Translations under genes and position numbers: made by a program
Shown: in pieces, positions 46,304-51,728 of the stretch
Numbering within the stretch: position 1 is the first letter of the stretch
Layout of the letters: each line of letters opens with the position of its first letter
Notes under the pieces: generated by a model
The model's input: the letters and a program-made list of their open reading frames with translations, nothing else
Told to the model about the DNA's origin: nothing
Databases searched by the model: none
Assembly: GCF_013408425.1 (NCBI RefSeq)
Contig: NZ_JACBYV010000001.1
Location: forward strand, 372,001 to 436,000
Reading direction: 5' to 3'
Origin: Pseudomonas flavescens
GTDB taxonomy: Bacteria; Pseudomonadota; Gammaproteobacteria; Pseudomonadales; Pseudomonadaceae
DNA: 64,000 bases

Positions 46304-46517
46304 GCGGCACCTGTCTTTTCACGTTGAGTGTTAGATGGGGTGCTGCTGGCTTTTTTCAATATTTATTCGCTCGGCAGCCCGCGATCTGCGTGCCCGCGGC
46401 TTCTCGAAATGCTTGCCGGGTGTTTCGTGCTGTGGCGGTCATTCCACCTGTCGTGGCCCATACAGTTTTTCCATGCAACGCGGTAGAGTGCGCGCATCGC
46501 CCATCGAGTTGCGAATC

Positions 46518-47270
46518 ATGCTCAACGCCCGCCTCATGCGCCTGGACGATCAGGCCCACGAACACACCCACGACCACCATCAACTGGTGATGTCGGTGTC
46601 GGGGCGTGCCGAGTTCGAAGTGGTCGGGCGGGGTGGCGAGGTGTGCCGGATGCGCGCGTGCCTGGTGCCGGGTGATGCCGACCACCAGTTCGCCGGCATC
46701 GGTGACAATCGCATGCTGATCGTCGACCTCAACGAGCAGGACATGAGCAGCGAAGACCTGCAACTGCTCGGCCATCTGTTCGACACGCCGCGCTATCCGC
46801 AACTGGATGCCGATTTCCAGCACCTGCTGAGCTACGCCGGCGCCGAGCTGGAGCGTTACGGTGGCGATCCGCTGCTGGCCCGTTCGCTGGGTGGCGTGCT
46901 GCTGCGCGCACTGCATCTGCGGGTGTTCGGCGAGCAATCGCTGCGCGGGCATGGCTCGATGGACGTGCAACGCCTCGACGGGTACATCGCCGATAACCTG
47001 GCGCGCCGCATCAGCGTTGCCGAGCTGGCCCACGTGGCCTGCCTCAGCCCCAGTCACTTCCATGCCCAGTTCAAGGACAGCGTTGGCCTTACGCCGCACC
47101 AGTACCTGCTCAAGGCGCGGCTCGACCACGCCACGCGGCTATTGCGTGGCAGTGGCCTGCCGCTGATTCGCATTGCCGAGGAGTGCGGCTTCTCCAGCCA
47201 GAGCGCCTTGACCACAGCCATGCGCCGTTATCTGGGGCTTACGCCCAAGCGCATGCGCGGTAGCGAATAA
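46518..47270 (+). CDS. AraC family transcriptional regulator
   Basis: A 250-residue regulator with an N-terminal cupin-like sensing domain rich in His (HEHTHDHHQL, about residues 13-22) and a C-terminal double helix-turn-helix (ISVAELAHVACLSPSHFHAQF, then IRIAEECGFSSQSALTTAMRRYLG). The start at 46518 is chosen over 46335, whose extra 61 residues lack family character. Target unknown. It precedes the cupredoxin/c-di-GMP operon by 190 bases on the same strand and might control it. Confidence 0.87.
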   Translation: MLNARLMRLDDQAHEHTHDHHQLVMSVSGRAEFEVVGRGGEVCRMRACLVPGDADHQFAGIGDNRMLIVDLNEQDMSSEDLQLLGHLFDTPRYPQLDADFQHLLSYAGAELERYGGDPLLARSLGGVLLRALHLRVFGEQSLRGHGSMDVQRLDGYIADNLARRISVAELAHVACLSPSHFHAQFKDSVGLTPHQYLLKARLDHATRLLRGSGLPLIRIAEECGFSSQSALTTAMRRYLGLTPKRMRGSE

Positions 47271-47460
47271 GCCGCCTCAGCCAGCTGCCTAGCCAATTAT
47301 CACGCTCCCGCCCTCCTGTGATGGCTATTTGCCTTGTCTGGCTTCTGGAAAAGTGTGAACTTATCTACATTGCCGACTAATCTTCCCAGCAGCTCTGCCG
47401 TTATTAGATGGGGGCGTGTTTATGGCCCAAAGAGGCGCGCGTGTTCTGGACGAGTTCATC

Positions 47461-48141
47461 ATGACCAAAGGTTTTCTTTTCGTATTGCATCTGTCGTTGT
47501 TCGCTGCACTGGGCGCCGCTCAGGCCGCCAGCCTGCAGGGCGAACTGGTGGACGCCAAGGGCGCGCCGCTGGCCAACGCCGTCGTCACCCTGCAGGGTCC
47601 TGCAAATGGCGCTGCACCACCGGGCAAGGCGGTGATGGACCAGCAGGACATGCGCTTCGTGCCCACCGTGCTGGCCGTTCGCACCGGCACGGCGGTGACC
47701 TTTCCGAACCGCGACGACATCCGCCATCACGTCTACTCGTTCTCGGCACCCAAGCGCTTCGAGTTGCGCCTGTATCAGGGCACGCCCAGCGCGCCGATCG
47801 TGTTCGACAAGCCAGGGCTGGTGGTGCTCGGCTGCAATATCCACGACTGGATGGTCGGCTACGTGTACATCACCGATGATCCCTGGTTCGCCGTCAGCGA
47901 TGCTCAGGGCAAGCTGTCCATCGACAATCTACCGGCGGGGGACTACCGCGTGACCCTGTGGCATTCCGCCTTGCCGGACATGCTGCCGCAACAGGGCGCT
48001 GCCCTGAAGGTGGAGGCTGGCTCCGTGCAGCAGCGCTTCCAGTTGCCGATCGAGGCACCGAGTGAAACCGACCCGCCTGGCGCACCGCCAAGTGCCTTCG
48101 GGGACGCCTTCAAGAAAGCCGTGGAACATGGTTCGCACTAG
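47461..48141 (+). CDS. Periplasmic cupredoxin-like protein (methylamine-utilisation-type)
   Basis: A 226-residue exported protein (signal peptide about 1-22, ending AQA/ASLQ). A short Ig-like or carboxypeptidase-regulatory fold (GELVDAKGAPLANAVVTLQG) leads into a plastocyanin-like domain: His ligands in DDIRHHVYSF (about 82-91) and Cys-His-Met in CNIHDWMVGY (about 120-129). These residues fit a type 1 copper site. Annotation as methylamine utilisation is by similarity only; no mau genes are near. The ATG at 47461 is preferred over 47416. It overlaps the following gene by 14 bases. Confidence 0.85.
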   Translation: MTKGFLFVLHLSLFAALGAAQAASLQGELVDAKGAPLANAVVTLQGPANGAAPPGKAVMDQQDMRFVPTVLAVRTGTAVTFPNRDDIRHHVYSFSAPKRFELRLYQGTPSAPIVFDKPGLVVLGCNIHDWMVGYVYITDDPWFAVSDAQGKLSIDNLPAGDYRVTLWHSALPDMLPQQGAALKVEAGSVQQRFQLPIEAPSETDPPGAPPSAFGDAFKKAVEHGSH

Positions 48142-50434
48142 CTTCCAGGCGCGCATCGCCAGCGTTCTGATCCTGCTGCTGCTCGTGGTGATCGGCGCGC
48201 TGTATTTCGCCGTCCAGGCGGCGACCACTGCGTCGATTCGCACCCAGGCACGCGAGCAACTGGATGTCGGCACCAGCGTGTTCGGGCAGTTGCTCGACGT
48301 GCACTCACGGCAGCTCAGGGATGCGGTCCAGGTACTGACCACCGATTTCGGCTTCCGCGAGGCGGTGGCCAGTGGTGACGAGGCGACTATCCGCTCGGCG
48401 CTGTTCAACCATGGCGCGCGCATCAATGCCGGTGTGGTGATGATGTTCGACATGGATGGCAAACTGACCTCCAGCACCCTGGCGCCCTTGTCGACGGCGC
48501 GGGCCGAGCAGATCAACACGCAACTGGGTAGCCAGGGGCAGAGTTTCCTGATGCCTTTCGATGGCAGCATCTACCTGCTGGTACAGGCCACCGTCAGTGC
48601 GCCGTTGCCCATCGCGCGACTGGTGATGGGATTTGCCATCGATGAAGGCTTCGCCCGCGAGTTGAACCAGCTGACCCACCTGGAACTGACCCTGACCGGT
48701 AGCATGGAGGGGCAGCCCGACGTGCGCGTGAGTACGCTCGATGACATGCCGATGATCGCCTTCGAGGGTGACAGCGGCGAGGTGCTGCATGGTGGCGAGC
48801 CCTTCCTGGTGCAGCGTCTGGTGCTCGCCAGTGGCGACGGCTTCCGCGTGCAGGCACTGCTGCAACGTTCCCTGGAGCAGGCCCGCGGTTCGGTCGCGGC
48901 GCTCAATCGAAAGATCCTCTTCATCGCCGTAGCCGCGCTGCTGGCCTCACTGGTTGGTGCGCTGTTGCTGGCGCGCAGCCTGTCGCAGCCGATTCGCCGC
49001 CTGGCAGGTGCGGCGGAGCGAGTCGGGCAGGGCGACTACGAGGTGCCGCTGGCGCTCGACCGTGCGGACGAACTGGGCAGCCTGGCCAAGGCCTTTCAAA
49101 GCATGCAGCAGGGTGTCGCCGAGCGTGAGCGGCAACTGGCGCACAATGCGCTGCACGATCCTCTGACCGGCCTGCCCAATCGCAACCTGGCCCTCGAGCG
49201 TCTGGGCAGTGCCATCTCGGCGCAGCGACACATCGCTTTGCTTTACCTGGGCATCGGCAACTTCCGCACGGTCAGCGAGAGCTGCGAAGCGGGGGGGACC
49301 GACCGGGTCATGCAGCAATTGGCCAATCGCCTGAAGGCGGCGCTGCGCCCGGCCGACAGCCTGGCGCGGATGGTCGGCGACGAATTCGTGCTGCTCCTCG
49401 AAGGAAGTGACATGGAGGGGGCGGTGGCTACCGCCGACCGGGTTCAGCAACTCTCCATGAAGCCCTTTCGGGTCGATAATCTGGACATCGCCCTGGATTG
49501 CCGCATCGGTATCGCCGCCTATCCCGCCGATGGCTCTACCCCGGAAGAGTTGCTGCGCCGTGCCGCCATCGCCATGCAGGACGCCGGGCACCTGGCGGGG
49601 CGCATTCAGCTTTACGAAAGTGGCCGCGATGTTGCACAGCAGCGCCAGGTGCAACTGATCCGCGACCTGCGCCGCGCCGCTCATCAGGACGAACTGCTGC
49701 TGCATTACCAACCCAAGCTGGATATCCGCAACCCGGGCAGAATCCAGGCCGAGGGGCTGCTGCGCTGGCAGCACCCGCAATTCGGCATGGTTTCGCCGGG
49801 TGAATTCATTCCGCTGGCAGAGCGCACCGGCAGCATTCAGATGCTGACCGCCTGGGTGATCGAAGAGGGCATCCGCCAGTTGCAGGAGTGGCGTCAGCGT
49901 GGGCAGGTCGTACAGCTCTCGCTGAATATCTCCACCGAGGACCTGATCGACGCCGAGTTGCCGACGCGGGTCGGTCGCCTGCTGACGCATTACCAGATTC
50001 CAGGTTCACAACTGATCTTCGAAATTACCGAGAGCGGCGTGATGCTCAACCCGGCCGTGGCCCTGCAGGTGTTGCATGGCTTGCGCGAAAAGGGCATCGG
50101 CCTGTCGGTGGATGACTTCGGTACCGGCTATTCTTCCTTGGCGCAGCTCAAGCGCATGCCGGTGCAGGAACTGAAGATCGACCAGACCTTTATCCGCGAT
50201 CTGCACGACACCAGCGAAGATGCGGTGATCGTGCGCTCGACCATCGAGATGAGCCACAGCCTGGGGCTCAAGGTGGTCGCCGAGGGCGTCGAGCTGCAGC
50301 GCAGCCTGGATCTGCTCGAGCATTGGCATTGCGACAGCGTGCAGGGTTATCTGATCAGCCGGCCGTTGGCCGCGCGGGCCTTCGAGGCCTGGATGCAGCG
50401 GCCCTTAACTTCTCCCGTTTCCCTGGTGTATTGA
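48128..50434 (+). CDS. Membrane c-di-GMP enzyme with periplasmic sensor, HAMP, GGDEF and EAL
   Basis: A 768-residue protein: helix at about 10-32, periplasmic sensor region about 33-260 (cache-like), second helix about 262-283, HAMP, degenerate GGDEF (MVGDEF, about 415-420), then EAL. The EAL motif reads EGLLRW (Glu about 542), but NIS, EITES, DDFGTGYSS (about 662), KIDQTFI and EGVE are kept. Likely a c-di-GMP phosphodiesterase with an inactive or regulatory GGDEF domain. Start chosen at 48128, where it overlaps the upstream gene. Next gene begins two bases after its stop. Confidence 0.9.
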   Translation: MVRTSFQARIASVLILLLLVVIGALYFAVQAATTASIRTQAREQLDVGTSVFGQLLDVHSRQLRDAVQVLTTDFGFREAVASGDEATIRSALFNHGARINAGVVMMFDMDGKLTSSTLAPLSTARAEQINTQLGSQGQSFLMPFDGSIYLLVQATVSAPLPIARLVMGFAIDEGFARELNQLTHLELTLTGSMEGQPDVRVSTLDDMPMIAFEGDSGEVLHGGEPFLVQRLVLASGDGFRVQALLQRSLEQARGSVAALNRKILFIAVAALLASLVGALLLARSLSQPIRRLAGAAERVGQGDYEVPLALDRADELGSLAKAFQSMQQGVAERERQLAHNALHDPLTGLPNRNLALERLGSAISAQRHIALLYLGIGNFRTVSESCEAGGTDRVMQQLANRLKAALRPADSLARMVGDEFVLLLEGSDMEGAVATADRVQQLSMKPFRVDNLDIALDCRIGIAAYPADGSTPEELLRRAAIAMQDAGHLAGRIQLYESGRDVAQQRQVQLIRDLRRAAHQDELLLHYQPKLDIRNPGRIQAEGLLRWQHPQFGMVSPGEFIPLAERTGSIQMLTAWVIEEGIRQLQEWRQRGQVVQLSLNISTEDLIDAELPTRVGRLLTHYQIPGSQLIFEITESGVMLNPAVALQVLHGLREKGIGLSVDDFGTGYSSLAQLKRMPVQELKIDQTFIRDLHDTSEDAVIVRSTIEMSHSLGLKVVAEGVELQRSLDLLEHWHCDSVQGYLISRPLAARAFEAWMQRPLTSPVSLVY

Positions 50435-50436
50435 CC

Positions 50437-51297
50437 ATGTCCTTGTTCCAACTGACTGGCGGCCTCTTGTTCGCAATGCTCACCACGGCTGCTGTCGCCG
50501 GTAATGGGCGACTGCTGGCCACCGGCGGTGCCAGCAGCCTGGAAGGCGCAGCCGGTGGCGGTATCACCCCCTGGGCGGTGCTGGCCGGTTATGGCGAGCA
50601 GGGCGAGTGGGGCGCTGACGTATTCGCCACGCGGGTGGAAACCGGTGACTACCGCCTCGACGTGGCCGGTGTGGCGGCCGCTTATGACAATCGCATCGAG
50701 CTTTCCTACGCGCGCCAGCGCCTCGACCTGGGCAACCTGGCGCGCAACCTGAGCCTGCCGGAAAACAGCCTCAGCCAGGACATCTTCGGTATCAAGGTGC
50801 GGCTGTTCGGCGATCTGATCTATGACCAGCTACCCCAGGTATCGCTGGGCATTCAGCACAAGCGCCAGAAAGACTTCCTCATCCCCAGCCTGGTCGGTGC
50901 CCAGCGTGACGAAGACACCGAAGGCTACCTGACCGCCAGCCGACTGATTCTGGGCGGCGCCTTCGGCTACAACCTGCTGCTCAACGGTGGCGTGCGCTAC
51001 AGCCGTGCCAACGAGCTGGGCCTGCTGGGCTTCGGCGGTGACCGCCGCGACCGCCATTCGGTGCTCAAGGAAGGCTCCGTGGCGGTGCTGCTCAACCGGC
51101 AGTGGGCAGTGGGCGTCGAGTATCGGGAGAAACCGGACAACCTCAATTTCGCCGGGGAAAGCGACTGGGCCGATCTGTTCATTGGCTACTTCCCCAACAA
51201 GCATCTGGCCGTGGTACTGGCTTACGCGCAGCTGGGCGAGATCGCCACGCTGGATAACCAGAACGGTGCCTATCTGTCCGTGCAGGGGAGTTTCTGA
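50437..51297 (+). CDS. DUF3034 envelope protein
   Basis: A 286-residue exported protein with a signal peptide (about 1-21, ending AVA/GNGR). The mature part has alternating hydrophobic patterns (ADVFATRVETGDYRLDV, AVGVEYREKPDNLNF) and ends in Phe (VQGSF), as in outer-membrane beta-barrels. It matches the DUF3034 family, whose function is unknown. It starts two bases after the c-di-GMP enzyme and ends two bases before the truncated globin gene, so it is translationally tied to both. Confidence 0.85.
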   Translation: MSLFQLTGGLLFAMLTTAAVAGNGRLLATGGASSLEGAAGGGITPWAVLAGYGEQGEWGADVFATRVETGDYRLDVAGVAAAYDNRIELSYARQRLDLGNLARNLSLPENSLSQDIFGIKVRLFGDLIYDQLPQVSLGIQHKRQKDFLIPSLVGAQRDEDTEGYLTASRLILGGAFGYNLLLNGGVRYSRANELGLLGFGGDRRDRHSVLKEGSVAVLLNRQWAVGVEYREKPDNLNFAGESDWADLFIGYFPNKHLAVVLAYAQLGEIATLDNQNGAYLSVQGSF

Positions 51298-51299
51298 GC

Positions 51300-51728
51300 A
51301 TGCTGCGTTCATTCTGCGTGGCGGTCCTGTCGCTGCTGTTGCTGGTCGGTTGCGCACAGCAGCCTGCCAAGGACGACAGTCTGTACCGCGAGCTCGGCGA
51401 GAAGCCCGGCATCACCCGCATCGTCGAGGGCATGCTGCTCAACGTGGCCCGCGATGAGCGCATCGTGCACTTCTTCGCCAAGGTCGACATCGCCGGCCTG
51501 CGCGACAAGCTGGTCGACAAGTTCTGCGTGATCGCGGGCGGGCCGTGCGTCTATACCGGCGACACCCTCGAAGAAAGCCACAAAGGCCAGAAGCTGACGC
51601 CCAGTCACTTCAATGCCCTGGTCGAAAACCTGCAGGTGGCGATGGAAAGCGAAGGCGTGCCAACACCGACCCAGAACCGTCTGCTGGCGCGCCTGGCGGT
51701 TCTGCGGGGGCAGGTCATCGAACAATGA
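51300..51728 (+). CDS. Truncated haemoglobin (group 1-like), predicted lipoprotein
   Basis: A 142-residue protein with a signal peptide and lipobox LVGC (Cys about 18), followed by a 2/2 globin domain of about 115 residues: SLYRELGEKPGITRIVEGML, AGGPCVYTGDTLEESHKG and the proximal His in LTPSHFNALVENL (about 102). Truncated globins are normally cytoplasmic; a lipoprotein signal places this one in the periplasm. Ligand could be oxygen, NO or CO. It ends the four-gene operon. Confidence 0.88.
   Translation: MLRSFCVAVLSLLLLVGCAQQPAKDDSLYRELGEKPGITRIVEGMLLNVARDERIVHFFAKVDIAGLRDKLVDKFCVIAGGPCVYTGDTLEESHKGQKLTPSHFNALVENLQVAMESEGVPTPTQNRLLARLAVLRGQVIEQ

Follow-up and report, generated by a model that had tools for sequence, protein, structure and literature searches.

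A recurrent gene set joining a cupredoxin and a dCache receptor to a predicted outer-membrane barrel and an exported globin, with a possible role in c-di-GMP breakdown

The stretch analysed here (hereafter, the window) comprises 64,000 nucleotides of Pseudomonas flavescens DNA (RefSeq assembly GCF_013408425.1, contig NZ_JACBYV010000001.1, positions 372,001 to 436,000 of the forward strand). It contains four genes, all on the + strand, which encode in order a cupredoxin, a transmembrane receptor with a phosphodiesterase domain for cyclic diguanylate (c-di-GMP), a protein of the DUF3034 family and a globin. An earlier note on this DNA had described the genes as a tight set whose products are predicted to be exported or to carry a large periplasmic sensor. 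The coordinates confirm the packing, with a 14-base overlap followed by two 2-base gaps, and the products agree with the description: signal sequences on the cupredoxin and DUF3034 protein and an LVGC lipobox on the globin were recognized by eye, and a model of the receptor shows two long helices flanking a periplasmic-type domain of approximately 220 residues. The features of the set, in window coordinates, are as follows.

47461..48141, + strand: exported cupredoxin, 226 residues (family alignment, profile matches)
47725..47853, + strand: type 1 copper ligand set H89, C125, H128 and M131 of the cupredoxin (C-x2-H-x2-M; alignment)
48128..50434, + strand: dCache-HAMP-GGDEF-EAL receptor, 768 residues, overlapping the cupredoxin gene by 14 bases (Pfam, structure model)
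48215..48895, + strand: periplasmic dCache-type sensor domain, receptor residues 30-256
48965..49114, + strand: HAMP domain of the receptor (Pfam PF00672, 9e-16)
49148..49588, + strand: GGDEF domain with the degenerate motif VGDEF (Pfam, 2e-27)
49661..50365, + strand: EAL c-di-GMP phosphodiesterase domain, catalytic residues complete (Pfam PF00563, 7e-72)
50437..51297, + strand: DUF3034 protein, predicted 12-strand outer-membrane beta-barrel, 2 bases after the receptor gene (Pfam DUF3034, 1e-113)
51300..51728, + strand: exported group I truncated globin with a lipoprotein-type signal in the window, 2 bases after the DUF3034 gene (PF01152, Bac_globin, 1e-14)
51351-51353, + strand: lipobox Cys of the globin
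51525..51581, + strand: Cys pair C76 and C83 and proximal His H94 of the globin (alignment)

The four families recur together well beyond the host. In a sample of 396 genomes of the phylum, DUF3034 is present in 49, host included, and the loci of the other 48 (up to 9 kb on each side, less at contig ends) were searched with profiles grown from the window proteins. All four families occur together in 39 of the 49 DUF3034 genomes or, leaving out the host, in 38 of 48, within approximately 5 kb. Gene order in these 38 loci, assigned by eye from the table of profile matches, falls into four classes: cupredoxin-receptor-DUF3034-globin (29 loci), DUF3034-globin-cupredoxin-receptor (1), receptor and cupredoxin divergent from DUF3034-globin (6), and receptor, cupredoxin and globin divergent from DUF3034 (2). 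Among named records, two Caballeronia plasmids have the second arrangement and a Novosphingobium plasmid the third. A separate scan covered 80 named loci, closest matches only and mostly from Pseudomonas and Xanthomonadaceae; 75 contain all four families, the cupredoxin and DUF3034 genes flanking a receptor that carries EAL. The receptor in that place at L138 is not scored as EAL-bearing, the longest start of the receptor frame at L164 precedes the cupredoxin, and three loci, all at contig ends, are without the full set. The set is thus not confined to close relatives, the finding that the earlier note had named as a refutation: it is seen in Caballeronia, Novosphingobium, Xanthomonadaceae and Pseudomonadaceae, and its order and strands differ among them.

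The earlier note proposed testing whether the families co-occur more often than chance; across the 396 genomes the Fisher values, which ignore descent, are very small. Cupredoxin and sensor are both present in 63 genomes and both absent from 331, with one genome having cupredoxin only (G056) and one having sensor only (G151) (3e-71). The globin subfamily accompanies DUF3034 in 49 of 49 genomes and occurs in 2 of the 347 genomes without it (9e-61). DUF3034 is found with the cupredoxin in 48 genomes (DUF3034 only, 1; cupredoxin only, 16; 1e-46) and with the sensor in 47 (DUF3034 only, 2; sensor only, 17; 5e-44). The globin is tied more tightly to DUF3034 than to the receptor. For the sensor, the cut-off (1e-15) was fixed ahead of the search, and the cut-offs for globin (130 bits; lowest counted 132, next 108) and cupredoxin (1e-40; gap from 4e-46 to 8e-36) were chosen after the gap had been seen. 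A further sample of 175 genomes, some of them shared with the first, was searched at thresholds fixed beforehand: all 9 new cupredoxin genomes have the sensor, and the cupredoxin is present in 9 of the 13 genomes newly found to have the sensor.

Linkage is not required for this association. Cupredoxin and sensor are present without being adjacent in six genomes (G052, G156, G165, G173, G343 and G376), and, among the ten DUF3034 genomes whose locus lacks the full set, the absent partners are encoded at another site in G156, G165, G204, G212, G226, G236 and G357, of which G236 (locus L091) has only a shortened DUF3034 frame. In G402 the receptor is a kinase and the globin lies approximately 10 kb away.

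The sensor also keeps its copper protein while the output is exchanged, as predicted for a reader-receptor pair. Cupredoxin-linked sensors are joined to class III cyclases in three genomes (L218, L258 and L259), to Ser/Thr kinases in two (L064 and L233) and to a histidine kinase (HisKA-HATPase) in one (L215); remote relatives sit on PAS-hybrid kinases in two more, with a MauG-like gene in between (L234) or 377 bases from the cupredoxin (L235). A profile of the periplasmic part, HAMP removed, matches these receptors at 5e-61 (L218), 2e-57 (L258), 5e-56 (L259), 5e-48 (L215), 3e-17 (L233), 3e-14 (L064), 1e-12 (L234) and 3e-8 (L235). The two transmembrane Ser/Thr kinases with a dCache-HAMP front and a linked cupredoxin are at L064:10806-13409 and L233:3288-5981, the former with a weak cyclase-like match (E 0.03) between HAMP and kinase. 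Given near-complete co-occurrence, including unlinked pairs, and exchange of outputs, the cupredoxin looks like the dedicated partner of the receptor, and we regard it as probable that the receptor is read by the cupredoxin.

A conserved neighbourhood could also be kept by co-transfer or co-regulation with no mechanistic coupling among its members, and the presence of some copies on large plasmids and the modest correlations between family distance matrices would fit such a history. Membership nevertheless persists while gene order and strand reshuffle, partners persist when unlinked, and within family f1 sensor, globin and cupredoxin all accompany DUF3034 in the 12 genomes that have it and, at the thresholds used, are all absent from the 10 that do not. 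We consider this explanation very improbable.

Some loci record changes to the set itself. A Pseudomonas relative (L091:7982-9938) retains an AraC gene and the globin together with the shortened DUF3034 frame but neither cupredoxin nor receptor, a local loss of the module. On a Caballeronia plasmid (L014:7304-8309) all that is left of the receptor is a short piece of Cache domain following a cupredoxin that looks intact. At L129, L130, L131, L133, L135, L137, L141, L142 and L143, Pseudomonas loci with the labels sivasensis, poae, marginalis, viridiflava, cyclaminis, trivialis, syringae and lurida, the set is immediately preceded by an additional EAL receptor of the family.

By its predicted ligands the first protein is a type 1 cupredoxin. 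H89, C125, H128 and M131 do not vary across the 25 aligned sequences, the window protein among them, and we take them to be copper ligands by comparison with amicyanin. The Copper-bind match of the window protein falls below the Pfam cut-off, and the label rests on the family alignment. Relatives are annotated ‘methylamine utilization protein’, and the window protein resembles amicyanin and other type 1 cupredoxins in ligand spacing (H...C-x2-H-x2-M) and in weak profile matches. An identity as amicyanin was rejected, the score being 14.7 bits against an NCBIfam equivalog cut-off of 110.2. Unlike amicyanin, the protein carries an extra C-terminal stretch, which resembles a carboxypeptidase-regulatory domain (PF13620, 32.0 bits; cut-off 32.3), and the genes beside its family are mostly those for the receptor, DUF3034, globin or barrel-like proteins (methylamine dehydrogenase genes were not searched for). 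Genes for MauG-like dihaem peroxidases directly adjoin distant cupredoxin relatives at L234:4973-5983 and L237:6547-7659, again a haem partner, of another kind.

The sensor has a predicted dCache fold, a label that rests on the family alignment and the model. In the window receptor both dCache_3 (21.2 bits; cut-off 25.7) and CHASE4 (16.0 bits; cut-off 26.2) fall short, whereas dCache_3 exceeds its cut-off in several relatives and CHASE4 does so in L084 and L252. Structure comparison places LuxQ at the top among the matches listed, tied by Z with CitA, and LuxQ-LuxP complexes appear in the same list. An alignment of 32 sensor sequences has no invariant column and three nearly invariant ones (Asp, Leu and Arg), whereas the copper ligands of the cupredoxin are invariant. 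With no fully conserved ligand in the sensor, direct detection of metal at a single shared site seems less likely; lineage-specific metal or haem ligands are possible.

The EAL half has a complete set of c-di-GMP phosphodiesterase residues by alignment. Ten of eleven marked catalytic or metal-binding positions are invariant in 60 of 60 sequences and the eleventh is conserved in 58. These 60 include three tandem second receptors and three from plasmids and exclude weaker or partial matches and the receptors of L212, L222 and L239; L252-L257 were obtained later. The motif of the GGDEF half is intact in 17 of the 60, and for the window receptor, with its degenerate VGDEF, a role of this half as an active cyclase partner was rejected. 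Another member of this sensor family is encoded in the host genome (L248:5389-6804; C1, about 3390388-3391803), a receptor with an intact GGDEF and no EAL, and the same cue might therefore drive both synthesis and breakdown of c-di-GMP. Similar GGDEF-only receptors are present at L250 and L251.

The DUF3034 protein is predicted to be an outer-membrane barrel of 12 antiparallel strands. Its model shows an N-terminal helix and twelve strands with structural matches to barrels, and its C-terminal residue is Phe in the window, nearly invariant in alignment A5 and replaced by Leu or Tyr in some of a wider set. The earlier proposal of an envelope partner is supported by this model and sharpened to a predicted barrel. 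A receptor and DUF3034 share one 1073-residue reading frame in a Xanthomonas phaseoli genome (L167:6586-9804).

An alternative is a copper-level sensor, in which the cupredoxin reports copper, DUF3034 provides an outer-membrane channel related to copper, and c-di-GMP is adjusted through the receptor according to how much copper is available. PcoB, however, is far from the best barrel match listed for the DUF3034 model, type 1 sites bind copper very tightly and are ill suited to reading its level, and the globin is left without a role. We judge this explanation unlikely.

The fourth protein is, by sequence, a group I truncated haemoglobin and a predicted haem protein, with a Bac_globin score of 54.9 bits (cut-off 21) and a proximal His. 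Its closest solved relatives are HbN (PDB 1idr and mutants), with which it shares sequence homology and that His. It differs from HbN in being exported, in an invariant Cys pair and in mostly apolar residues at B10, E7 and E11 in place of Tyr33 and Gln58. The Cys pair (C76 and C83) and H94 are invariant in 30 of 30 aligned globins. In the register of the globin alignment to HbN, distal positions are apolar in 28 of 30 (B10), 30 of 30 (E7) and 30 of 30 (E11) sequences: B10 is Leu, Val, Ile or Met in 28, with one Tyr and one Asn, and E11 is Leu, Phe or Ile in all. An identity as an HbN-type nitric oxide (NO) dioxygenase was set aside, the B10 Tyr being mostly gone and the E11 Gln wholly gone. 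Other haem sensors whose distal pocket offers no hydrogen-bond donor prefer NO to O2, and the mostly apolar pocket predicted here would likewise favour NO (or CO) over O2.

Haem and copper proteins side by side could instead constitute an enzymatic or electron-transfer chain for detoxification of NO, peroxide or copper, with the cupredoxin donating electrons to the globin, or to a MauG-like peroxidase in other lineages, and with the EAL protein simply sharing their regulation or responding to a different signal. Electron transfer is the classic function of cupredoxins, distant cupredoxin relatives at L234 and L237 have MauG-like genes next to them, and the proximal His and Cys pair of the globin are invariant, all of which would suit such a chain. 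It does not predict near one-to-one co-occurrence of cupredoxin and sensor, even when unlinked or joined to other outputs, and of the two distal HbN residues the B10 Tyr is missing from most of the globins and the E11 Gln from all. We consider this chain improbable, albeit less so than a copper-level sensor.

Upstream of the operon lies one further gene:

46335..47270, + strand: AraC-family regulator, a possible regulator of the operon

It was rejected as a core member, with a relative in only 26 of 129 loci (some from the same genome), 3 of these at the far locus edge. The sole match to an Anr/Dnr-type box beside the operon, at 47455-47468, lies over the start codon and was taken as no evidence; with two mismatches allowed, the window holds 23 matches, exceeding every one of 100 shuffles.

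We propose that the four proteins form an envelope-spanning sensory module that sets c-di-GMP breakdown, with the cupredoxin as the dedicated periplasmic partner of the receptor, and assign this a probability of roughly 0.6. The copper protein and the globin, both presumably loaded with their cofactors, copper and haem, would pick up an extracytoplasmic redox or gas cue, perhaps NO. The redox or copper state of the cupredoxin, or that of its complex with the exported globin, may then alter docking on the dCache domain; HAMP would relay the change to the EAL phosphodiesterase and hence to c-di-GMP breakdown, in whichever direction the response runs. The barrel and the haem globin may work together to add an input from the outer envelope. 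We regard NO or redox as a possible input, though less likely than not to be the right one. The earlier note suggested that the signal may pass through both globin and cupredoxin: the step from cupredoxin to sensor is supported by co-occurrence, unlinked pairs and output exchange, and the position of the globin in the signal path, given its tighter tie to DUF3034, is the weakest link. A wider generalization, which we put a little short of even odds, is a widespread, undescribed class of receptors that sense through a blue-copper protein, shared by c-di-GMP phosphodiesterases, nucleotide cyclases, and Ser/Thr and histidine kinases, with the barrel and an NO-selective globin extending it to a redox/NO sensor in many Proteobacteria.

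Several observations weigh against this proposal. Fisher values ignore descent, and the genomes are not independent; moreover, linkage was the criterion for choosing the loci behind the profiles. Distance-matrix correlations among the four families reach only 0.40-0.61 (38 loci, omitting L014 and the tandem-receptor loci L044, L045 and L047) and were not used as support. Strong receptors occur without a cupredoxin at threshold in G151 and, in the second sample, G553, and three more sensor-only genomes of that sample score 61-65 bits, no weaker than the counted positives G171 (68) and G402 (59), both of which have their weakly scoring sensor directly beside a cupredoxin. No receptor reaches threshold in G056, which does have cupredoxin, DUF3034 and globin, and in G115 only DUF3034 and globin are present. 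The cupredoxin may also have other jobs, as it adjoins a different protein of approximately 410 residues at L208, L211, L213, L216, L219 and L224; this neighbour has an apparent signal sequence and, in 2 of 5 scanned, barrel hints under the cut-off, and a receptor of the family is present elsewhere in all six genomes. LuxQ and CitA tie by Z, with the CHASE4 domain of IsmP, a direct ligand binder, next at 13.2, and the one nearly invariant Asp in the sensor leaves room for a shared site. Finally, the mean predicted local distance difference test score (pLDDT) of the DUF3034 model is only 70.7.

If the proposal holds, a copper protein would act as a signalling subunit, beyond its part as an electron carrier, and it would become testable whether biofilm signalling is controlled by NO or redox conditions in the periplasm. 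To our knowledge, many c-di-GMP enzymes have no known input. With cupredoxin and sensor in 63 of 396 genomes and DUF3034 and globin in 49, roles for four families at once are possible. The four-gene module appears undescribed, in line with the earlier note: a search of open-licence papers, in which absence is weak evidence, found no system with these four members. The same literature yielded no described function for DUF3034, the cupredoxin family or the exported globin subfamily; one mention of DUF3034 seems to mean DUF3037 and another belongs to an actinobacterial list.

Among known systems, YfiBNR comprises an outer-membrane lipoprotein, a periplasmic repressor and a membrane cyclase. The window set is like it in three-compartment control of a HAMP-containing c-di-GMP enzyme, and differs in its phosphodiesterase output and its protein families, YfiBNR having no copper or haem protein. 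NbdA and NosP are NO-responsive c-di-GMP enzymes. Proteins of this type and globin-coupled sensors, the latter treated in a review of c-di-GMP sensing (PMC8846402), similarly tie haem or copper gas sensing to c-di-GMP, whereas the window globin is a separate exported protein, unfused to an enzyme. A term search of the main text of that review gave no occurrence of copper, cupredoxin or DUF3034 (PMC8846402). The set also resembles the Pseudomonas aeruginosa CHASE4 proteins IsmP (PA2072), PA14_37690 and PA0847/PA14_53310, which are reported to sense iron, haem or copper; those proteins bind metal or haem directly, whereas the window set has a separate copper protein and a sensor with no invariant column (PMC10904736, PMC13277305). 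In contrast to these proteins, the window receptor has no PAS domain by Pfam.

In layout the window set matches receptors read by a periplasmic partner protein: it has a dCache-type domain, HAMP and a cytoplasmic output, with an exported partner co-inherited with the receptor. In LuxP-LuxQ and NspS-MbaA, a periplasmic binding protein is read by a Cache receptor, and MbaA is itself a GGDEF-EAL protein. The window set resembles them in the small exported protein that accompanies a dCache-type transmembrane receptor, LuxQ being the top structural match, tied with CitA. It departs from them in having a blue-copper protein where they use one that binds a sugar or a polyamine, in the addition of a globin and a predicted outer-membrane barrel, and in outputs that swap among EAL, cyclase, Ser/Thr kinase and histidine kinase.

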